From: Cryobacterium sp. CG_9.6
GTDB lineage: Bacteria; Actinomycetota; Actinomycetes; Actinomycetales; Microbacteriaceae
Reading direction: 5' to 3'
NCBI RefSeq assembly: GCF_029893365.1
Contig: NZ_JARXUZ010000001.1
Location: 2,914,001-2,978,000 of the forward strand
DNA: 64,000 bases
Shown here: piece after piece, positions 44,452-50,065 of the stretch
How the letters are laid out: each line of letters opens with the position of its first letter
How positions within the stretch are numbered: position 1 is the stretch's first letter
Notes under the pieces: generated by a model
What the model saw: only the letters and a program-made list of their open reading frames with translations
Databases searched by the model: none
Told to the model about the DNA's origin: nothing
Program-made: the position numbers and the translations under genes

Positions 44452-45167
44452 TTAGAACTGAATGCCGCGGGTGAGCGCGCCGTCGATCAGCAGGTTCGTG
44501 CCCGTGGTGCGGCTCGACACGGGGCTGGAGAGAAAGACGACACCGGAGGCGATTTCTTGGGCCGTGCCCATCCGGCCGGTGGGGTTCAAGCCGAGGGCGA
44601 GGGAATACAGGTCCGGGTTGCCGGTCTCGATGCTCGACCACACGCCGCCGGGCTCGTAGGTGTTGCCCGGCGACACCGTGTTGGCCCGAATTCCGGTCGG
44701 GGCCAGCTGCAGCGCCAGGCCTCCGATGTAGCCGATGATCGCCGTCTTGGCCGTGCCATAGGGACCCGACGCGAAGTCGGCCTCGCGCCCCGACACACTG
44801 GAGATGGCCACGATGGAGGGCGCGTCGCTCTTCTCGAGGTACGGCAGGGCCGCCTTCACGAGATTGACGGTTCCCATCACGTCAACCTCGAACGAGTCGA
44901 CCCAGTTCTCGGCTGTGTCGGGAATGGCCAGCGCGCTGACGTTGGCCACAATCACGTCGACGCCGCCGAATTTTTGCGCGGAGGCGTCCACCCAGGCCGT
45001 GAGAGCGACGGCGTCGCGCACATTCAGCACGGACCCGATCACGGTGCTGGGGCTGTCGGCGAAGATCGCCTCAACGGCCGCCACCTCCTCGGCACTCCGT
45101 GCGCAAAATGCCACGTTCGCGCCCTCGGCCACGAACGTATTCACAATGGCTCGGCCGATTCCCTTAG
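44452..45167 (-). pseudogene. Short-chain dehydrogenase/reductase, C-terminal part, separated from its start by IS1380
   Basis: The frame continues directly from the target duplication: KGIGRAI then NTFVAEGANVAFCARSAEEV. Key SDR features are NVSALAIP (NAG-like), VAISSVSGREADFASGPYGTAKTA (Ser-Tyr-x-x-x-Lys catalytic set) and SPGNTYEPGG. Joined to 46758-46808 the protein would be 253 residues, a normal SDR length, with no other lesion. GTG at 45144 could restart translation but would lack the Rossmann Gly-rich loop. Confidence 0.9.
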
Positions 45168-46637
45168 CCTCGATCCACCGGTCTGCCTTGACTGATCGGC
45201 GTCACTGAATTCAGATCGTGGTTTTTGGTGGCGGGCAGGGCGAGGCTGCCGACCTTGCTGCCGGTGGTGTTCCAAGTCTTCGTTCGCCGGGTGGCTGGTG
45301 GTTAGGTGGCGGCGGTTTGCGGGGAGGTGCAGGGTGATCCTGCGTGCCGAGGTGGAGATGCGGGCGGGGATGCTGATGAGTTTGCGACGAATGGTGCCGC
45401 TGCGTGCCTTGCCGAGATCGCTGCCGGCCAGCGAACCAACGGCGCGCGAAAGGTTGAAGGCGATCGTGGCCAGCACGAGCCAGGCCGCGTTGGCCGTGAA
45501 CACACCTGATGGCAGGTGCGCCAGCGCGCTGTCCTTAAGGTCGGCGTTAATCTGCTCGATGATGGCGTGCTGCCGGTGGGTCTGGTCCGCGGTGACAGTG
45601 TCCAGGTCGCTGGTGGTGAAGAACGCATGAAACCGATGCGTGTCAAACAGGGTCGGCTGCCCTTCGGTCGCCTTCTGATTCAGTTCCGGGATCCGGCGCA
45701 CGACCAGGCGCCCCACGATGCGTTCGGCCTTCTTGCGCGAGCTGAACGCGGTGAACACGACTTCCGCGACCTCGGCGGACGATATCCACGCGCCGGTGGC
45801 CTCGTCCCGGATCGCATCGGTGTAGTTGATGGTCGTCCATTGGTCATCGGTGATCGTGCCGATGGCGCGCTTAACGGCCGGGTCCATGCGTGCCGTGATG
45901 GACACTTTTGCGCCAGCCCGGTGCGCGGCGGCGACGACCGCGTGCCCATAGAACGCGCTGTCCGCGCGCAGCAGCACGAGGCCGGTGGCCGTCTGGCTGC
46001 GGAGGCGTTTCACGGTGGCGAGGACATCCCCGACGAACTTTCCCGCGCCGCGCGGGGAACCGGCCGCGCCTTTCCGCAGCCGGGAGCCGACGATGATCGG
46101 TGCCGCCTGGGGTGTGGAGACGATGCCGATCAGAGCGTTCAAGCCGCGCACTCCGGAGTAGCCGTAACCGGAGCCTTGCTTCTGATATCCGTGGACTTCC
46201 TTGATCGTGTCGTCGATGTCCACAAGGGCATAGTCGTCGATGCCCGCCACGATCGGGGTGTGTGCGGCGACGTTGACCAGCCACCGCCAAGCGACGGCGT
46301 CCAACTGACGGACGTGACCAAACGTGAACGACCGCAGGAACGACCCCAACGTCGACGGGGCATACGTCCCGACGAAGAGTTTCTTCATCCCGCCGTGCCG
46401 CAGCAACGCCATGTCATCAATCGAATCGGCACCAGCGAGCATCCCCGCGACCAACGCGGTGACTTTCAACCCCGAGTTCGCGCCGAAGTACCCCGGCAAG
46501 GTCAGCCATGCATCGGCGAGGTCGCTGAGGCCGGTTTTCACCGCCAACGCCATCGCGGGGACAAGCCCCGCGGACGACACGAGATTCGTGTCGTCGAAGG
46601 TGGCTGACAAGCGGCTGGAACTGTGGAAAAGTTGCAT
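45141..46637 (-). CDS. IS1380-family transposase
   Basis: This 498-residue DDE transposase has catalytic-region stretches DIDDTIKEVHGYQKQGSGYGYSG (first Asp), LLRADSAFYGHAVVAAA (second Asp) and RQHAIIEQINADLKDSALAHLPS (Glu). The C terminus is basic. The frame has no stop inside the element: it reads through the inverted repeat (PVTGGSR end) and takes its last eight residues and stop codon (45141-45143) from the target gene. The start ATG at 46637 is 120 nt inside the element. Confidence 0.93.
   Translation of the reverse strand: MQLFHSSSRLSATFDDTNLVSSAGLVPAMALAVKTGLSDLADAWLTLPGYFGANSGLKVTALVAGMLAGADSIDDMALLRHGGMKKLFVGTYAPSTLGSFLRSFTFGHVRQLDAVAWRWLVNVAAHTPIVAGIDDYALVDIDDTIKEVHGYQKQGSGYGYSGVRGLNALIGIVSTPQAAPIIVGSRLRKGAAGSPRGAGKFVGDVLATVKRLRSQTATGLVLLRADSAFYGHAVVAAAHRAGAKVSITARMDPAVKRAIGTITDDQWTTINYTDAIRDEATGAWISSAEVAEVVFTAFSSRKKAERIVGRLVVRRIPELNQKATEGQPTLFDTHRFHAFFTTSDLDTVTADQTHRQHAIIEQINADLKDSALAHLPSGVFTANAAWLVLATIAFNLSRAVGSLAGSDLGKARSGTIRRKLISIPARISTSARRITLHLPANRRHLTTSHPANEDLEHHRQQGRQPRPARHQKPRSEFSDADQSRQTGGSRLRESAEPL
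45163..45167. repeat. 5-bp target-site duplication, left copy
   Basis: CTTAG on the plus strand, repeated at 46758-46762. Removing the element and one copy restores the SDR codons ACT-AAG-GGA (Thr-Lys-Gly). Confidence 0.9.
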
Positions 46638-46757
46638 CTACGAGATGCCTCTCGAATCGGTTGAAATGAACCCTAAGTAAGTTCTATTTTTCCTGATCCG
46701 AGTGGCATTCTCTGTTTAACGCGCCGCTACGACCCTAACTCGACCGGTGGATCGAGG
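45168..46757. mobile_element. Complete IS1380-family insertion sequence (1590 bp)
   Basis: The ends are a perfect 16-bp terminal inverted repeat, CCTCGATCCACCGGTC at 45168-45183 and its complement at 46742-46757. The element is flanked by the CTTAG duplication. It contains one intact transposase gene on the minus strand. A short hairpin (CGAGA-TGCC-TCTCG, about 46640-46655) lies between the right end and the transposase start. Perfect ends, intact gene and exact duplication suggest a recent insertion. Confidence 0.95.
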
Positions 46758-46808
46758 CTTAGTGCCACCGGTGACGAGTGCGGTCTTGCCTGCGATTTTG
46801 AGGTCCAT
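46758..46808 (-). pseudogene. Short-chain dehydrogenase/reductase, N-terminal part
   Basis: ATG at 46808 encodes MDLKIAGKTALVTGGTK, the SDR start and first half of the TGxxxGxG cofactor loop, then runs into the IS element. A CAGTAT box 6 nt before the ATG could be a leaderless promoter. It belongs with the part at 44452-45167. Confidence 0.9.
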
Positions 46809-46889
46809 GACGTCATACTGCCAGACGCACCTGCCCGCCGTCCCCGCGCGGTGCGCGATCGGTGCCCGCCCGGTGCCCGCCCGGTGCCC

Positions 46890-47005
46890 GCACTCGCGTG
46901 TTGCTACTTCAGGAGATCCGGCCTCCTGGCATCCGCTCACCCCCGGAAACACGCGGCCCGCCCCCGCTCCAACCGGCAATGTCCTGAACTAGCAACCGGC
47001 GGCCC
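46890..47005 (+). repeat. Palindromic element, copy A1 (116 bp)
   Basis: 115 of 116 bases match 47084-47199. The outer arms TTGCTACTTCAGGA (46901) and TCCTGAACTAGCAA (to 46995) are complementary with one mismatch. The centre holds CCCCGGAAACACGCGG. Two to three GGTGCCCGCCC direct repeats precede it. The 46809-47337 gap contains only copies A1, A2 and GC-rich linker. Confidence 0.85.
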
Positions 47006-47083
47006 GCGACACGGCCCAGCTCGTCCCAGGGCACAAACACCTGCCCGCCCGGTGCGCTTATCCAGTGCCCTGGCCTGGTGCGC

Positions 47084-47199
47084 GCACTCGCGTGTTGCTA
47101 CTTCAGGAGATCCGGCCCCCTGGCATCCGCTCACCCCCGGAAACACGCGGCCCGCCCCCGCTCCAACCGGCAATGTCCTGAACTAGCAACCGGCGGCCC
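47084..47199 (+). repeat. Palindromic element, copy A2 (116 bp)
   Basis: Direct repeat of copy A1 with a 194-bp offset and a single T/C difference. It ends about 140 bp before the methyltransferase start. Confidence 0.85.
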
Positions 47200-47337
47200 A
47201 ACAAAGACCGGGCGGTCAGCCAAGCTCCCAGCTGCACGGCGCTGCGGCCCAACGCTCCGGGTAGCGAGAGCACACGAGCTCCTGCGCGCAGCCCGGTCGC
47301 GCCCGCAGCTTGGCAATCGGGGCCGACATGATCCACG

Positions 47338-48015
47338 ATGGAGTATGAGCACATTATGACTGAACACCACATGGATGAGCCCGCCTTCGATGCCGCCTAC
47401 TGGGACACCCGTTACCGCGACAGCACCTCGGTGTGGAGTGGCAACCCGAACCCCGTCCTCGTGAGTGAGGCCGCCGAACTCGCGCCCGGTCGGGCCCTCG
47501 ACATCGGCAGCGGCGAGGGAGCGGATGCCATCTGGCTCGCCGCCCGAGGCTGGGCCACCACCGCCGTCGACATTTCCAATGTCGCCCTCGATCGCGCCGC
47601 CGACCGAGCGCGCGCCGCGGACCCGGACATCGCTGCTCGCATCGAGTGGTTGCAACAGGACATCGTGGACTGGACGCCACCCCCGGCCACATTCGATCTC
47701 ATCACCTCGCAGTTCATGCATCTGCCGAGCGCTCAACGAGTGGTCCTGTTCGCACGCCTGGCTGCAGCCGTTGCGCCGGGCGGCACTCTGCTGATCGTGG
47801 GCCATCATCCGTCGGACATGGAGTCCGGGGTGCATCGCCCACCGCGCGCCGACCTATTTTTCACCCCGGAGAGCATCGCCGAGACCCTCGACCCGGCGCA
47901 GTGGGAGATTCTTGTGACCGACGCCCGTGCACGCACTGTCGTCGGCACTGACGGTGCGCCCACGACCATCCACGACGCGGTACTTCGCGCCCAGCGGCGA
48001 CCATCTGCTATTTGA
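47338..48015 (+). CDS. Class I SAM-dependent methyltransferase
   Basis: This protein of up to 225 residues has AAYWDTRYRDSTSVWSGNPN near the start, SAM motif I ALDIGSGEGADAIWLAARG, motif II TTAVDISNVALDRAA and motif IV TFDLITSQFMHLP. It resembles the small-molecule or thiol methyltransferases of the Methyltransf_25/31 group; the substrate is unknown. The start could be ATG at 47338 or ATG at 47356. The gene stands alone in a repeat-rich region, with palindromic elements on both sides. Confidence 0.82.
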   Translation: MEYEHIMTEHHMDEPAFDAAYWDTRYRDSTSVWSGNPNPVLVSEAAELAPGRALDIGSGEGADAIWLAARGWATTAVDISNVALDRAADRARAADPDIAARIEWLQQDIVDWTPPPATFDLITSQFMHLPSAQRVVLFARLAAAVAPGGTLLIVGHHPSDMESGVHRPPRADLFFTPESIAETLDPAQWEILVTDARARTVVGTDGAPTTIHDAVLRAQRRPSAI

Positions 48016-48093
48016 GCGGCTCGGAGTCGCCGGAAAGCGCAGGTGGTCGGGAAGCGTCGAGACAGCACAGGTGGATGCCGCGCCCGGCCCGGC

Positions 48094-48246
48094 TCGGCGG
48101 AGGCTCGTGCCCGCAGGTGGCTCGGGTGCCCCGTTGTTAGTTCAGGAGATCCGGTAGAAGACCGGCGGACTCCCCTGTCTTTCCGGGAGCCCCCAGCCGA
48201 AAGCACCCGGATCTCCTGAAGTAGCGACAGACACCGCCGCAGACTG
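48094..48246 (-). repeat. Palindromic element, copy B1 (extended unit 153 bp)
   Basis: Core 48141-48220 with perfect 14-bp arms TTCAGGAGATCCGG / CCGGATCTCCTGAA. It is co-linear over 153 bp with copy B2 (offset 217) without gaps. The centre contains TTTCCGGGAGCCCCC. It is in the opposite orientation to copies A1/A2. Confidence 0.8.
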
Positions 48247-48310
48247 CACTGCTCCAGATGCCACGGGCCACGCGAAGCCTCGGCTCGATGTCAGCCCGGC
48301 CCGGCCGTCC

Positions 48311-48463
48311 TCGGCGGAGGCTCATACCCGCCGGTGGCTCGGGCACCCCGTTGCTAGTTCAGGAGAACCGGTAGAACACCGGCGGGCTCCCCCGTGTTTC
48401 CGGGAGCCCCCAGCCAAAAGCACTCGGATCTCCTGAACTAGCGACAGACACCGCCGCAGACTG
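48311..48463 (-). repeat. Palindromic element, copy B2 (extended unit 153 bp)
   Basis: Core 48353-48442, with arms GCTAGTTCAGGAGAACCG and CGGATCTCCTGAACTAGC (one mismatch). A nested hairpin GGGCTCCC / GGGAGCCC occupies the centre. Confidence 0.85.
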
Positions 48464-48530
48464 ATCGTGCCCGAGCGCCAGGCGACGCATCCACTCGGCG
48501 CGACGAGACGCAGCGCCACGCCGGCTCACG

Positions 48531-48660
48531 ACCGCCGGTGGCTCGGGTGCCCGGCTGCTAGTTCAGGAGAACCGGCAGAACACCGGCGGGCTCCCGCGTG
48601 TTTCCGGGAGCCCCCAGCCAAAAGCACTCGGATCTCCTGAACTAGCGACACAGACGCCGC
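48531..48660 (-). repeat. Palindromic element, copy B3
   Basis: Core 48557-48646, with the same arms as copy B2 and the nested GGGCTCCCG / CGGGAGCCC hairpin. It ends about 45 bp before the glmM stop codon. The 688-base gap 48016-48703 holds copies B1-B3 and linker; no gene is supported. Confidence 0.85.
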
Positions 48661-48703
48661 TGAAAACGCCCAGTAACGGCGGGAGGCGAGCAGCCGGGCA
48701 GAG

Positions 48704-50065
48704 CTAGTTCGCGAGGCGCTCGAGAACGAGCGCGGCCAGCTGCTGCGCAAGGCGGTCCGCGGTGGGCTGATCGGCAGCCTCAACCATGACGCGAACCATG
48801 GGCTCGGTGCCCGAGGGCCGAAGCAGCACACGTCCGGTGTCGCCGAGTTCCGCCTCGGCGGCAACGACGGCCGCGGCAATCACGTCGTCCGACACGAGAG
48901 CCGAACGGTCGACGCCACGCACATTCACGAGAATCTGCGGGTAGACAGTCATCACCGAGGCGAGCTCGGCAATTGTTTTGCCGGTGCGCGCCATTTCGGC
49001 AACGAGGTGCAGCCCGGTGAGAATGCCATCGCCGGTCGTGGCGAACTCCGTCATGATGACGTGTCCGGACTGCTCGCCGCCCAGGGAATAGCCGTGTGCG
49101 TTGAGTTCCTCGAGCACGTACCGGTCGCCGACCTTGGTCTGCACGACACGGATGTCGTTCTCGGCCATGGCCTTACGCAGGCCGAGGTTGCTCATGACCG
49201 TGGCGACGAGGGTGCGGTCTTTCAGCACTCCACGCTCAGCCATGGACACGGCGAGAATGGCCATGATCTGGTCACCATCGATGATGTTGCCCTCGCGGTC
49301 AACGGCGAGGCAGCGGTCCGCGTCGCCGTCGTGGGCGATGCCGATGTCTGCCCCGTGTTCAAGCACGGCCCTGGCGAGGTTGTCGAGGTGAGTCGAACCC
49401 ACGCCGTCGTTGATATTGAGGCCGTCGGGGTCGGCGCCGATCACCGTGAGGCGAGCGCCGGCATCGGTGAAAACCTGGGGTGACACTCCGGCAGCGGCGC
49501 CGTGAGCACAGTCGAGCACCACGTGAATGCCAGCAAGCGGGTTCGGCAGGGTGCCGAGCAGATGCACGACGTAGCGGTCCTCGGCGTCGGCGAACCGGCG
49601 CACGCGGCCGACATCGCCACCGATGGGCATAAGCGTGTCGCGGCCGATGTAGGACTCAATGCGGTCCTCGACATCGTCGGGAAGTTTGGTTCCGCCATAG
49701 GCGAAGATCTTGATGCCGTTGTCGGGGGCCGCATTGTGTGAGGCGGAAATCATCACACCAAAGTCGGCGCCGATGTCGGCGATCAGAAAGGCTGCGGCAG
49801 GGGTGGGGATGACCCCGGCGTCGAGAACATCGACGCCACTGCTGGCAAGTCCGGCCGAGACTGCGGCCGTCAGAAATTCTCCGGAGATGCGGGGGTCGCG
49901 GGCGACCACTGCTACCGGGCGGCGACCCTCGGCGAGGCGTGCGGTGGCACGACGACCGGTGGTCAATACTGCTGCGCTGGCCTGGGCAAGGCTCAGGGCC
50001 AGGCCAGCCGTGAGATCACGGTTGGCCAGGCCCCGAACGCCGTCCGTGCCGAATAGTCGAGACAT
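48704..50065 (-). CDS. glmM: Phosphoglucosamine mutase
   Basis: This 453-residue enzyme converts glucosamine-6-phosphate to glucosamine-1-phosphate for UDP-GlcNAc. It has the N-terminal [15 protein letters not shown], the phosphoserine loop [15 protein letters not shown], the metal-binding [11 protein letters not shown] and the C-terminal phosphate-binding [14 protein letters not shown]. It follows rpsI by 25 nt, the standard actinobacterial order. Confidence 0.97.

Follow-up and report, generated by a model that had tools for sequence, protein, structure and literature searches.

Five copies of a palindromic sequence lie between an IS1380-type transposase gene and a glmM-like gene of Cryobacterium sp. 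CG_9.6, on both sides of a single methyltransferase-like gene. This arrangement raises the question of what these repeats are and whether any enzyme is dedicated to them. The window, i.e., the whole 64,000-nucleotide stretch of DNA analysed here (C1:2914001-2978000 of the genome designated G000), contains the five copies in two clusters of opposite orientation, as the first-pass annotation had proposed; a covariance model (R1) confirmed the number and refined the limits (Table 1). The outer arms and the centre described earlier are present, as is the GGGCTCCC/GGGAGCCC pair nested in copies 4 and 5.

Table 1. Elements and neighbouring genes in window coordinates
Feature	Position	Strand	Basis
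Palindromic element 1, arms and core CCCCCGGAAACACGCGG	46900..46996	+	cmsearch R1, 68.4 bits
Palindromic element 2, tandem copy of element 1	47094..47190	+	cmsearch R1, 68.8 bits
Palindromic element 3	48133..48228	-	cmsearch R1, 62.5 bits
Palindromic element 4	48350..48445	-	cmsearch R1, 69.8 bits
Palindromic element 5	48554..48649	-	cmsearch R1, 68.3 bits
Class I SAM methyltransferase-like gene, flanked by clusters 1 and 2	47356..48015	+	ORF; name read from sequence
glmM-like gene, 3' end towards cluster 2	48704..50065	-	ORF; name read from sequence
IS1380-type transposase ORF, left of cluster 1	45141..46637	-	ORF; name read from sequence

Cluster 1 (elements 1 and 2) is flanked by a short-chain dehydrogenase (SDR) gene and the methyltransferase gene, and cluster 2 (elements 3–5) by the methyltransferase gene and glmM. 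The first two copies are identical at 115/116 positions (46890-47005 versus 47084-47199), and the pairwise identities among copies 3–5 are 87/96, 84/96 and 93/96. Tandem copies take flanking DNA along with them, forming a 170-nt unit in cluster 2. The IS1380-type copy interrupts the dehydrogenase gene, which is intact in a related genome, G318 (L102 608-1369); its transposase ORF does not belong to the repeat system. A sub-threshold Rfam match to Ms_IGR-7 (window 46641-46756; 32.4 bits, gathering score 45) adjoins the IS1380-type copy.

The placement of the repeats around one lone methyltransferase gene had been singled out as unusual. It proves incidental, because the syntenic region of G318 (L102) has the same DUF-SDR-methyltransferase-glmM order with zero elements in both gaps. 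A role of the methyltransferase as a gene cassette or cargo was rejected for the same reason: G318 carries the gene without elements, so it is an ordinary neighbour. The window elements were therefore either gained in G000 or lost in G318. G318 lacks the window elements, but its flanks are too diverged for the junction to be placed, and no target site duplication was found in this comparison.

A dispersed repeat family and its anatomy

The 13-mer TTCAGGAGATCCG is far more frequent in G000 than chance would give, with 45 occurrences versus 0 of the reversed control. A covariance model built on 43 aligned elements detected 48 elements in the fetched G000 stretches (96 matches, both strands) and matches in 42/57 genus genomes, G000 included (both strands counted, at most 73 candidates scored per genome). 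A purely local duplication, the alternative to a repeat family, is refuted by these counts. Nearly all of the G000 elements (47/48) measure about 97 bp (96-98), and one measures 85 bp (L236 2507-2591). A 49th element is split in its core by an IS256-type insertion (L002 6348-7836) with CCGCGTGTT on either side of the insertion. As a motor of the element, both the IS1380-type and the IS256-type copy were rejected, the latter being an insertion into it.

The elements of G000 are arranged in clusters of 1-5 tandem copies, spaced mostly 160-220 bp apart (138-289 bp overall). They are extragenic and biased towards gene 3' ends: according to heuristic gene calls, 10 of the 20 clusters lie between convergent genes, 8 between co-directional and 2 between divergent ones (convergent excess, p 0.014). 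Clusters are also nearer the origin than expected by chance (p 0.002, with cluster positions typed by hand from earlier listings), and no element was found in an arc of 1.36 Mb (C1 1.385-2.747 Mb; gap p 0.003) that lies roughly across from dnaA (0.201 Mb). A nucleoid-occlusion-type signal was considered as a reading of the origin-proximity bias and set aside. A plasmid or phage origin of the elements was rejected after a search with zero matches, made in a collection that may lack records close to this genome.

Several arrays show further peculiarities. The same 169-aa gene stretch stands beside two of them (L002 5205-5711 and L008 6894-7400), whose elements are alike too, probably through segmental duplication. 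At L012 (5740-6215), the 3' end of a DedA-like gene preceding the array recurs in degenerate form behind the second element (local score 58, shuffle maximum 35), which recalls the gene-end capture reported for BIMEs in the available part of PMC2817692 (section 8). The octamer GCGGATGC is present in 17 Cryobacterium elements, 13 of them in G000, mostly at a position of about +12 relative to the centre (range 7.5-14.5); it is common in the genome regardless, with 31 occurrences in the window.

A strict pattern matched 9/299 genomes of the family Microbacteriaceae. Among GTDB representatives it matched 73 stretches, 42 of them from Microbacteriaceae, namely Cryobacterium, Glaciihabitans, Glaciibacter, Salinibacterium, Diaminobutyricibacter and other members; Naasia and Agromyces gave doubtful single matches, which were excluded from the anatomy and pairing analyses. 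Element sequences are shared among members of one genus, and this points to Cryobacterium as the probable host genus. The 31 remaining stretches were put aside by eye. They include multi-copy palindromes with TTCAGGAGAT...ATCTCCTGAA from Listeria (L023, L047, L062, L074, L078, L082 and L086; span 77) and Legionella (L044 and L071; spans 75 and 92), which look like other palindrome families sharing a ten-base word.

Each element consists of two inverted arms of about 18-20 bp (GTYGCTASTTCAGGAGATCC), two spacers, and a conserved core around CCGCGGAAACACGCGG / CCGGACCAGTGCGG. The spacers, about 20 bp on each side, are fixed in length, have no conserved sequence and do not pair with each other. 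The arms are lineage-specific, with GTYGCTAS-, GTGGCTAA-, CGGAAA- or TTGCAAA- preceding TTCAGGAGAT. Across lineages the two arms change together (69 cells altered on both sides versus 30.5 in shuffles). The first-pass annotation had proposed aligning the copies to look for compensatory changes; within G000, however, pairing at the variable outer arm positions is no more frequent than chance (15/46 with 21.9 expected and 22/46 with 22.7 expected), in a test of modest power as few arm positions vary, and three other genome sets gave no significant excess either.

The nuclease gene flanked by the elements

Clustering of element-adjacent genes combined with translated searches led to a 296-aa protein. 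Its G000 gene (C1:685889-686776) is located on the same contig as the window, between two pairs of the same elements. The protein comprises a predicted AbiEi_4 winged helix followed by a predicted Vsr-like REase_MTES_1575/DUF559 nuclease domain (PF18741, PF04480). Against Pfam, all three families score below cut-off for the G000 protein (MTES_1575, E 3.9e-5; DUF559, 15.8 bits; AbiEi_4), DUF559 exceeds it for several homologues (e.g., L092, L072, L188 and L200), and zero families are listed for L046 and L212. The sole significant PDB relative is 3hrl, annotated as 'endonuclease-like protein' (E 3e-4), and NCBIfam yielded zero matches for 8 proteins. Residues E195, R199, Q212, D222, E232 and D248 are invariant across 27 divergent homologues; we take the catalytic subset to lie among E195, Q212, D222, E232 and D248, following the Vsr/PD-(D/E)XK pattern, and the protein thus has predicted PD-(D/E)XK catalytic residues. 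A second, degraded homologue with two internal stops is found at G000:C1:3092861-3093424.

Matches to this protein occur in 53/57 genus genomes. Close homologues (group A, 57-100% identity) are present in 15 genomes and a second type (group B, 47-52%) in 22, with G348 possessing both. According to the covariance model, elements lie on both sides of the group A gene in all 15 genomes, a finding that points to a novel enzyme partner of repeats of this sort; at one of these loci, L183, the two flanking matches are both weak, scoring 26.9 and 20.1 bits. Relative to each other, the elements closest to the gene on either side are inverted at 11 of the 15 loci, direct at 3 and unclear at 1, as judged by strand scores that are nearly tied at L173 and L183, both counted as inverted. 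When inverted repeats with arms in common were sought blindly, 13/15 of these loci were recovered. Outside the genus, the genes of L026 (Salinibacterium), L046 and L072 (Glaciihabitans) are bracketed too; at L026 and L046, the nuclease open frame is overlapped in its 3' part by one of the elements.

Group B genes are bracketed by palindromes with different arms, GCATAACTCCTGCAATT, at 14/15 loci in L185-L199 and at 18/22 of all group B loci (15/22 with the first boundaries); the B genes of G347 and G348 (L225 and L226) are not bracketed by B arms. Further Cryobacterium paralogues have arms of their own: of 24 loci fetched, 3 gave no match, and 9 of the 21 that were scored are bracketed. As controls, loci of methyltransferase homologues gave no model match or bracketing pair (0/19), and mismatched flank pairs were never bracketed (0/400). 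Outside the family, 5/48 loci from three genera are bracketed, a few of the 48 having cut flanks; this hints weakly at a wider occurrence, as a lead and not a general rule. AbiEi/DUF559-type genes were observed in one genus of the same taxonomic class, with 5-6 Mb genomes (f6/g91; L243, L246, L279 and L283), with palindromes on both sides that match in L246, L279 and L283 and nearly match in L243.

Copy numbers follow the nuclease lineages. Genomes with the A gene (15) have a median of 60 A-model matches versus 5 in the 42 without it (one-sided p 2.8e-7), and those with the B gene (22) a median of 19 B palindromes versus 4 in the 35 without it (p 1.2e-6), in tests that ignore phylogeny. Cross association between A gene and B palindromes, or the reverse, was absent (p 0.87 and 1), so the number of palindromes of a given type goes with the presence of the cognate nuclease lineage and not with that of the other. 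The pairing is not absolute: some genomes have many A-model matches with neither a group A nor a group B gene (61 matches in G309, for example), and the B gene is accompanied by zero B palindromes in G347 and G348. A-model matches persist in 27/42 genomes without the A gene, and some of these may represent other palindrome types. Of the 18 other clusters in G000, 6 are found at most 105 kb away from the nuclease gene, versus 1.13 expected (p 6e-4, at a distance picked post hoc).

Both nuclease types reside mostly at one site, glpK-nuclease-HAD-trpS. In G299, G305 and G348 the A gene is instead located between ribD-like and regulator genes as element-nuclease-element, and the ribD-like site of G000 holds a solo element. 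Either homing or recombinational loss would be expected to leave such a pair of states at the same site in different species.

Protein and arm divergence at the locus are correlated (Mantel r 0.86, n 41), which may be plain linkage. For arms unlinked to the locus, the genome's own protein-associated arms were a better match than the mean of the others in 12/14 genomes (p 0.004) and ranked first in 3/14; this test is weak, with 2-4 arms per genome except in G000 and arms misread at one locus (G326). The unlinked elements sampled mismatch the own A arms in G299 (rank 14/15) and G305 (rank 12/15). Closer to those of G299 are the GTTCCGAATTCAGGAGT arms that flank a third nuclease of this genome (L202).

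Element lengths fall mostly into discrete classes in both families. Arm-to-arm lengths in the A family are 69-71, 80-82 or 91 bp in 114/115 elements and 89 bp in one, in a set where some elements are double-counted owing to the same genomes in two collections (e.g., L066/L089). In the sister B family they are 72-74, 83-87 or 95 bp in 72/75, with three others, all from G303, at 79, 81 and 82; these 75 lengths were hand-copied from a capped listing of places in eight genomes, using a pattern that admits totals of 70-96 only. The steps between classes correspond to approximately one DNA helical turn in both families. Given that the arms vary independently within a genome, each looks like a separately recognised double-stranded site, and together with the one-turn length classes this makes recognition of double-stranded DNA by a protein more plausible than an RNA hairpin.

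Proposed working and alternative explanations

We hypothesize, and consider it likely, that the repeats are dispersed recognition elements of a dedicated endonuclease, combining the AbiEi winged helix with a Vsr-like PD-(D/E)XK domain, and that they constitute a REP/RAYT-like system with an unrelated nuclease at its base. The winged helix would recognise each ~20-bp arm on double-stranded DNA, and the fixed spacing would set both arms on the same helix face, allowing a dimer to bridge them. The nuclease domain may then nick or cut the conserved core, the arms or DNA close to them. During repair or recombination the element would be copied adjacent to itself, often plus flanking DNA, giving rise to tandem arrays; copies may also reach extragenic sites elsewhere, frequently close to gene 3' ends. 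With divergence of the enzyme, the elements of a genome would be replaced by the matching type. Binding, cutting, copying and mobility are inferred, as would be any effect of an element on its host. The A, B and further subfamilies would provide a natural series of protein-site pairs for studying changes in DNA recognition.

Alternatively, nothing in this system may be mobile. The arms could be AbiEi-type operators through which the protein autoregulates at the gene-side copies, the dispersed copies being a regulon or chromosome-organising sites. The N-terminal AbiEi-like winged helix, despite its weak scores, would fit this idea, and independent arms with helical phasing suit a dimeric DNA-binding protein. 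However, elements are also found downstream of the nuclease gene, half of the G000 clusters lie between convergent genes and only two between divergent ones, flanking DNA travels with tandem copies (the 170-nt unit of cluster 2), and the nuclease residues are conserved. We therefore regard the operator function as an unlikely explanation for the family.

The first-pass annotation had also suggested MITE-like elements. Conventional MITEs moved by a DDE transposase, the arms serving as their terminal inverted repeats, would account for the uniform length and the inverted ends, and helical-phase classes are expected for short DNA that needs synapsis. Yet in 16 G000 stretches every arm with at most one mismatch has a partner at short distance, except in the element that the IS256-type copy splits into two halves. 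Allowing up to two mismatches across the genome adds just two unpaired matches to the listing, both weak (C1:1812916 and C2:104398); weaker arm matches with 3-4 mismatches in the 16 stretches are unpaired. No target duplication was seen, the gene between the elements encodes a nuclease and not a DDE transposase, and a scan of G000 revealed no autonomous IS with the same ends. These observations make a MITE very unlikely.

Structured RNA ends had been suggested as well, and the elements could in principle act as a 3' UTR stabiliser, a terminator or a small RNA: they are foldable, biased towards 3' ends, and their outer arm positions change on both sides across lineages. Against this, the left arm of an element varies independently of the right one within a genome, with no variable position pairing significantly above chance in G000 and the three other genome sets, the two 20-nt spacers are unpaired, and Rfam gave no match at gathering score in 46600-48800, only three sub-threshold ones. 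An RNA function is thus highly improbable.

A classical REP/BIME of a Y1 (RAYT) transposase can practically be dismissed: ecology and arrangement are the same as described for REP-RAYT in the available part of PMC2817692, but size and end motif differ, and the REP-associated tyrosine transposase that the first-pass annotation had suggested looking for was rejected as the partner, with zero matches to PF01797 in 18 genomes against 5/14 positive control genomes.

Comparison with known systems

We return to the preferred explanation, a dedicated nuclease with its own dispersed elements. AbiEi, the regulator of the AbiE type IV toxin-antitoxin system, binds inverted repeats in its own promoter. 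The protein described here shares with it the winged-helix type and the presence of inverted-repeat DNA nearby. Unlike AbiEi, it has a C-terminal nuclease, and its putative sites flank the gene on both sides and occur genome-wide; unlike in AbiE, no AbiEii was recognised among the listed neighbours (glpK-, HAD- and trpS-like genes), as judged by names.

By profile similarity and predicted catalytic residues, the protein probably belongs to the REase_MTES_1575/DUF559 'very-short-patch-repair endonuclease' family. The MTES_1575/DUF559 domain has been described as a DNase of conflict systems, and the available part of that work mentions no repeat partner (PMC3710099). Among the matches listed from the open-licence PMC literature, we found neither a DUF559/Vsr-like gene tied to palindromic repeats nor this repeat family itself. 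We speculate, as a tentative generalisation that we hold somewhat less probable than its opposite, that the AbiEi/DUF559 'very-short-patch-repair' endonuclease genes, which are frequent in Actinomycetota and lack an explanation there, represent a second, RAYT-independent class of REP-generating systems, in which each lineage recognises, cuts and propagates its own palindromes, and that many orphan actinobacterial palindromes are their products. This would offer a function for a large family of 'hypothetical endonucleases'.

ERIC, BOX and other orphan bacterial palindromes are not known to have a dedicated enzyme. They resemble the present repeats in size class and dispersion; here, an enzyme is linked to the repeats.

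The closest parallel is provided by REP-RAYT systems (REPtrons), as characterised in the available parts of Nunvar 2010 (PMC2817692) and Di Nocera 2013 (PMC3733652). The REP/BIME-like assignment made from the window holds for behaviour, as the elements are extragenic, clustered, palindromic, often at gene 3' ends and accompanied by a cognate gene; it does not extend to RAYT-REP, given the lack of Y1_Tnp in the 18 genomes, the Vsr-like nuclease partner and the length of ~97 bp. Extragenic palindromes, arrays and a 3'-end bias are common to both systems. In both, repeats bracket the enzyme gene, which here encodes the Vsr-like nuclease (all group A loci), the repeat type follows the enzyme lineage, and the repeat number follows the presence of the gene (with G309, G347 and G348 as exceptions and phylogeny ignored). 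The enzyme of REP-RAYT is an HUH Y1 transposase, whereas the one found here combines an AbiEi winged helix with a Vsr-like PD-(D/E)XK nuclease. REP-RAYT repeats are 20-40 bp long and exceed 100 copies, whereas the present elements measure ~97 bp with a separate core and number in the tens, and their arms are free of within-genome pairing constraint, unlike those of REP-RAYT. The GTAG/CGTC end tag is absent from arms of other lineages (CGGAAATTCAGG, TTGCAAATTCAGG). Since the Y1 enzyme, the size and the end tag all differ, we do not file the system as REP-RAYT.

According to the available part of Di Nocera (PMC3733652), one REP superfamily has no dedicated transposase, and how REP families of this kind spread is left open there. 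A cognate nuclease of a different superfamily would be a concrete and testable answer for at least one repeat family.
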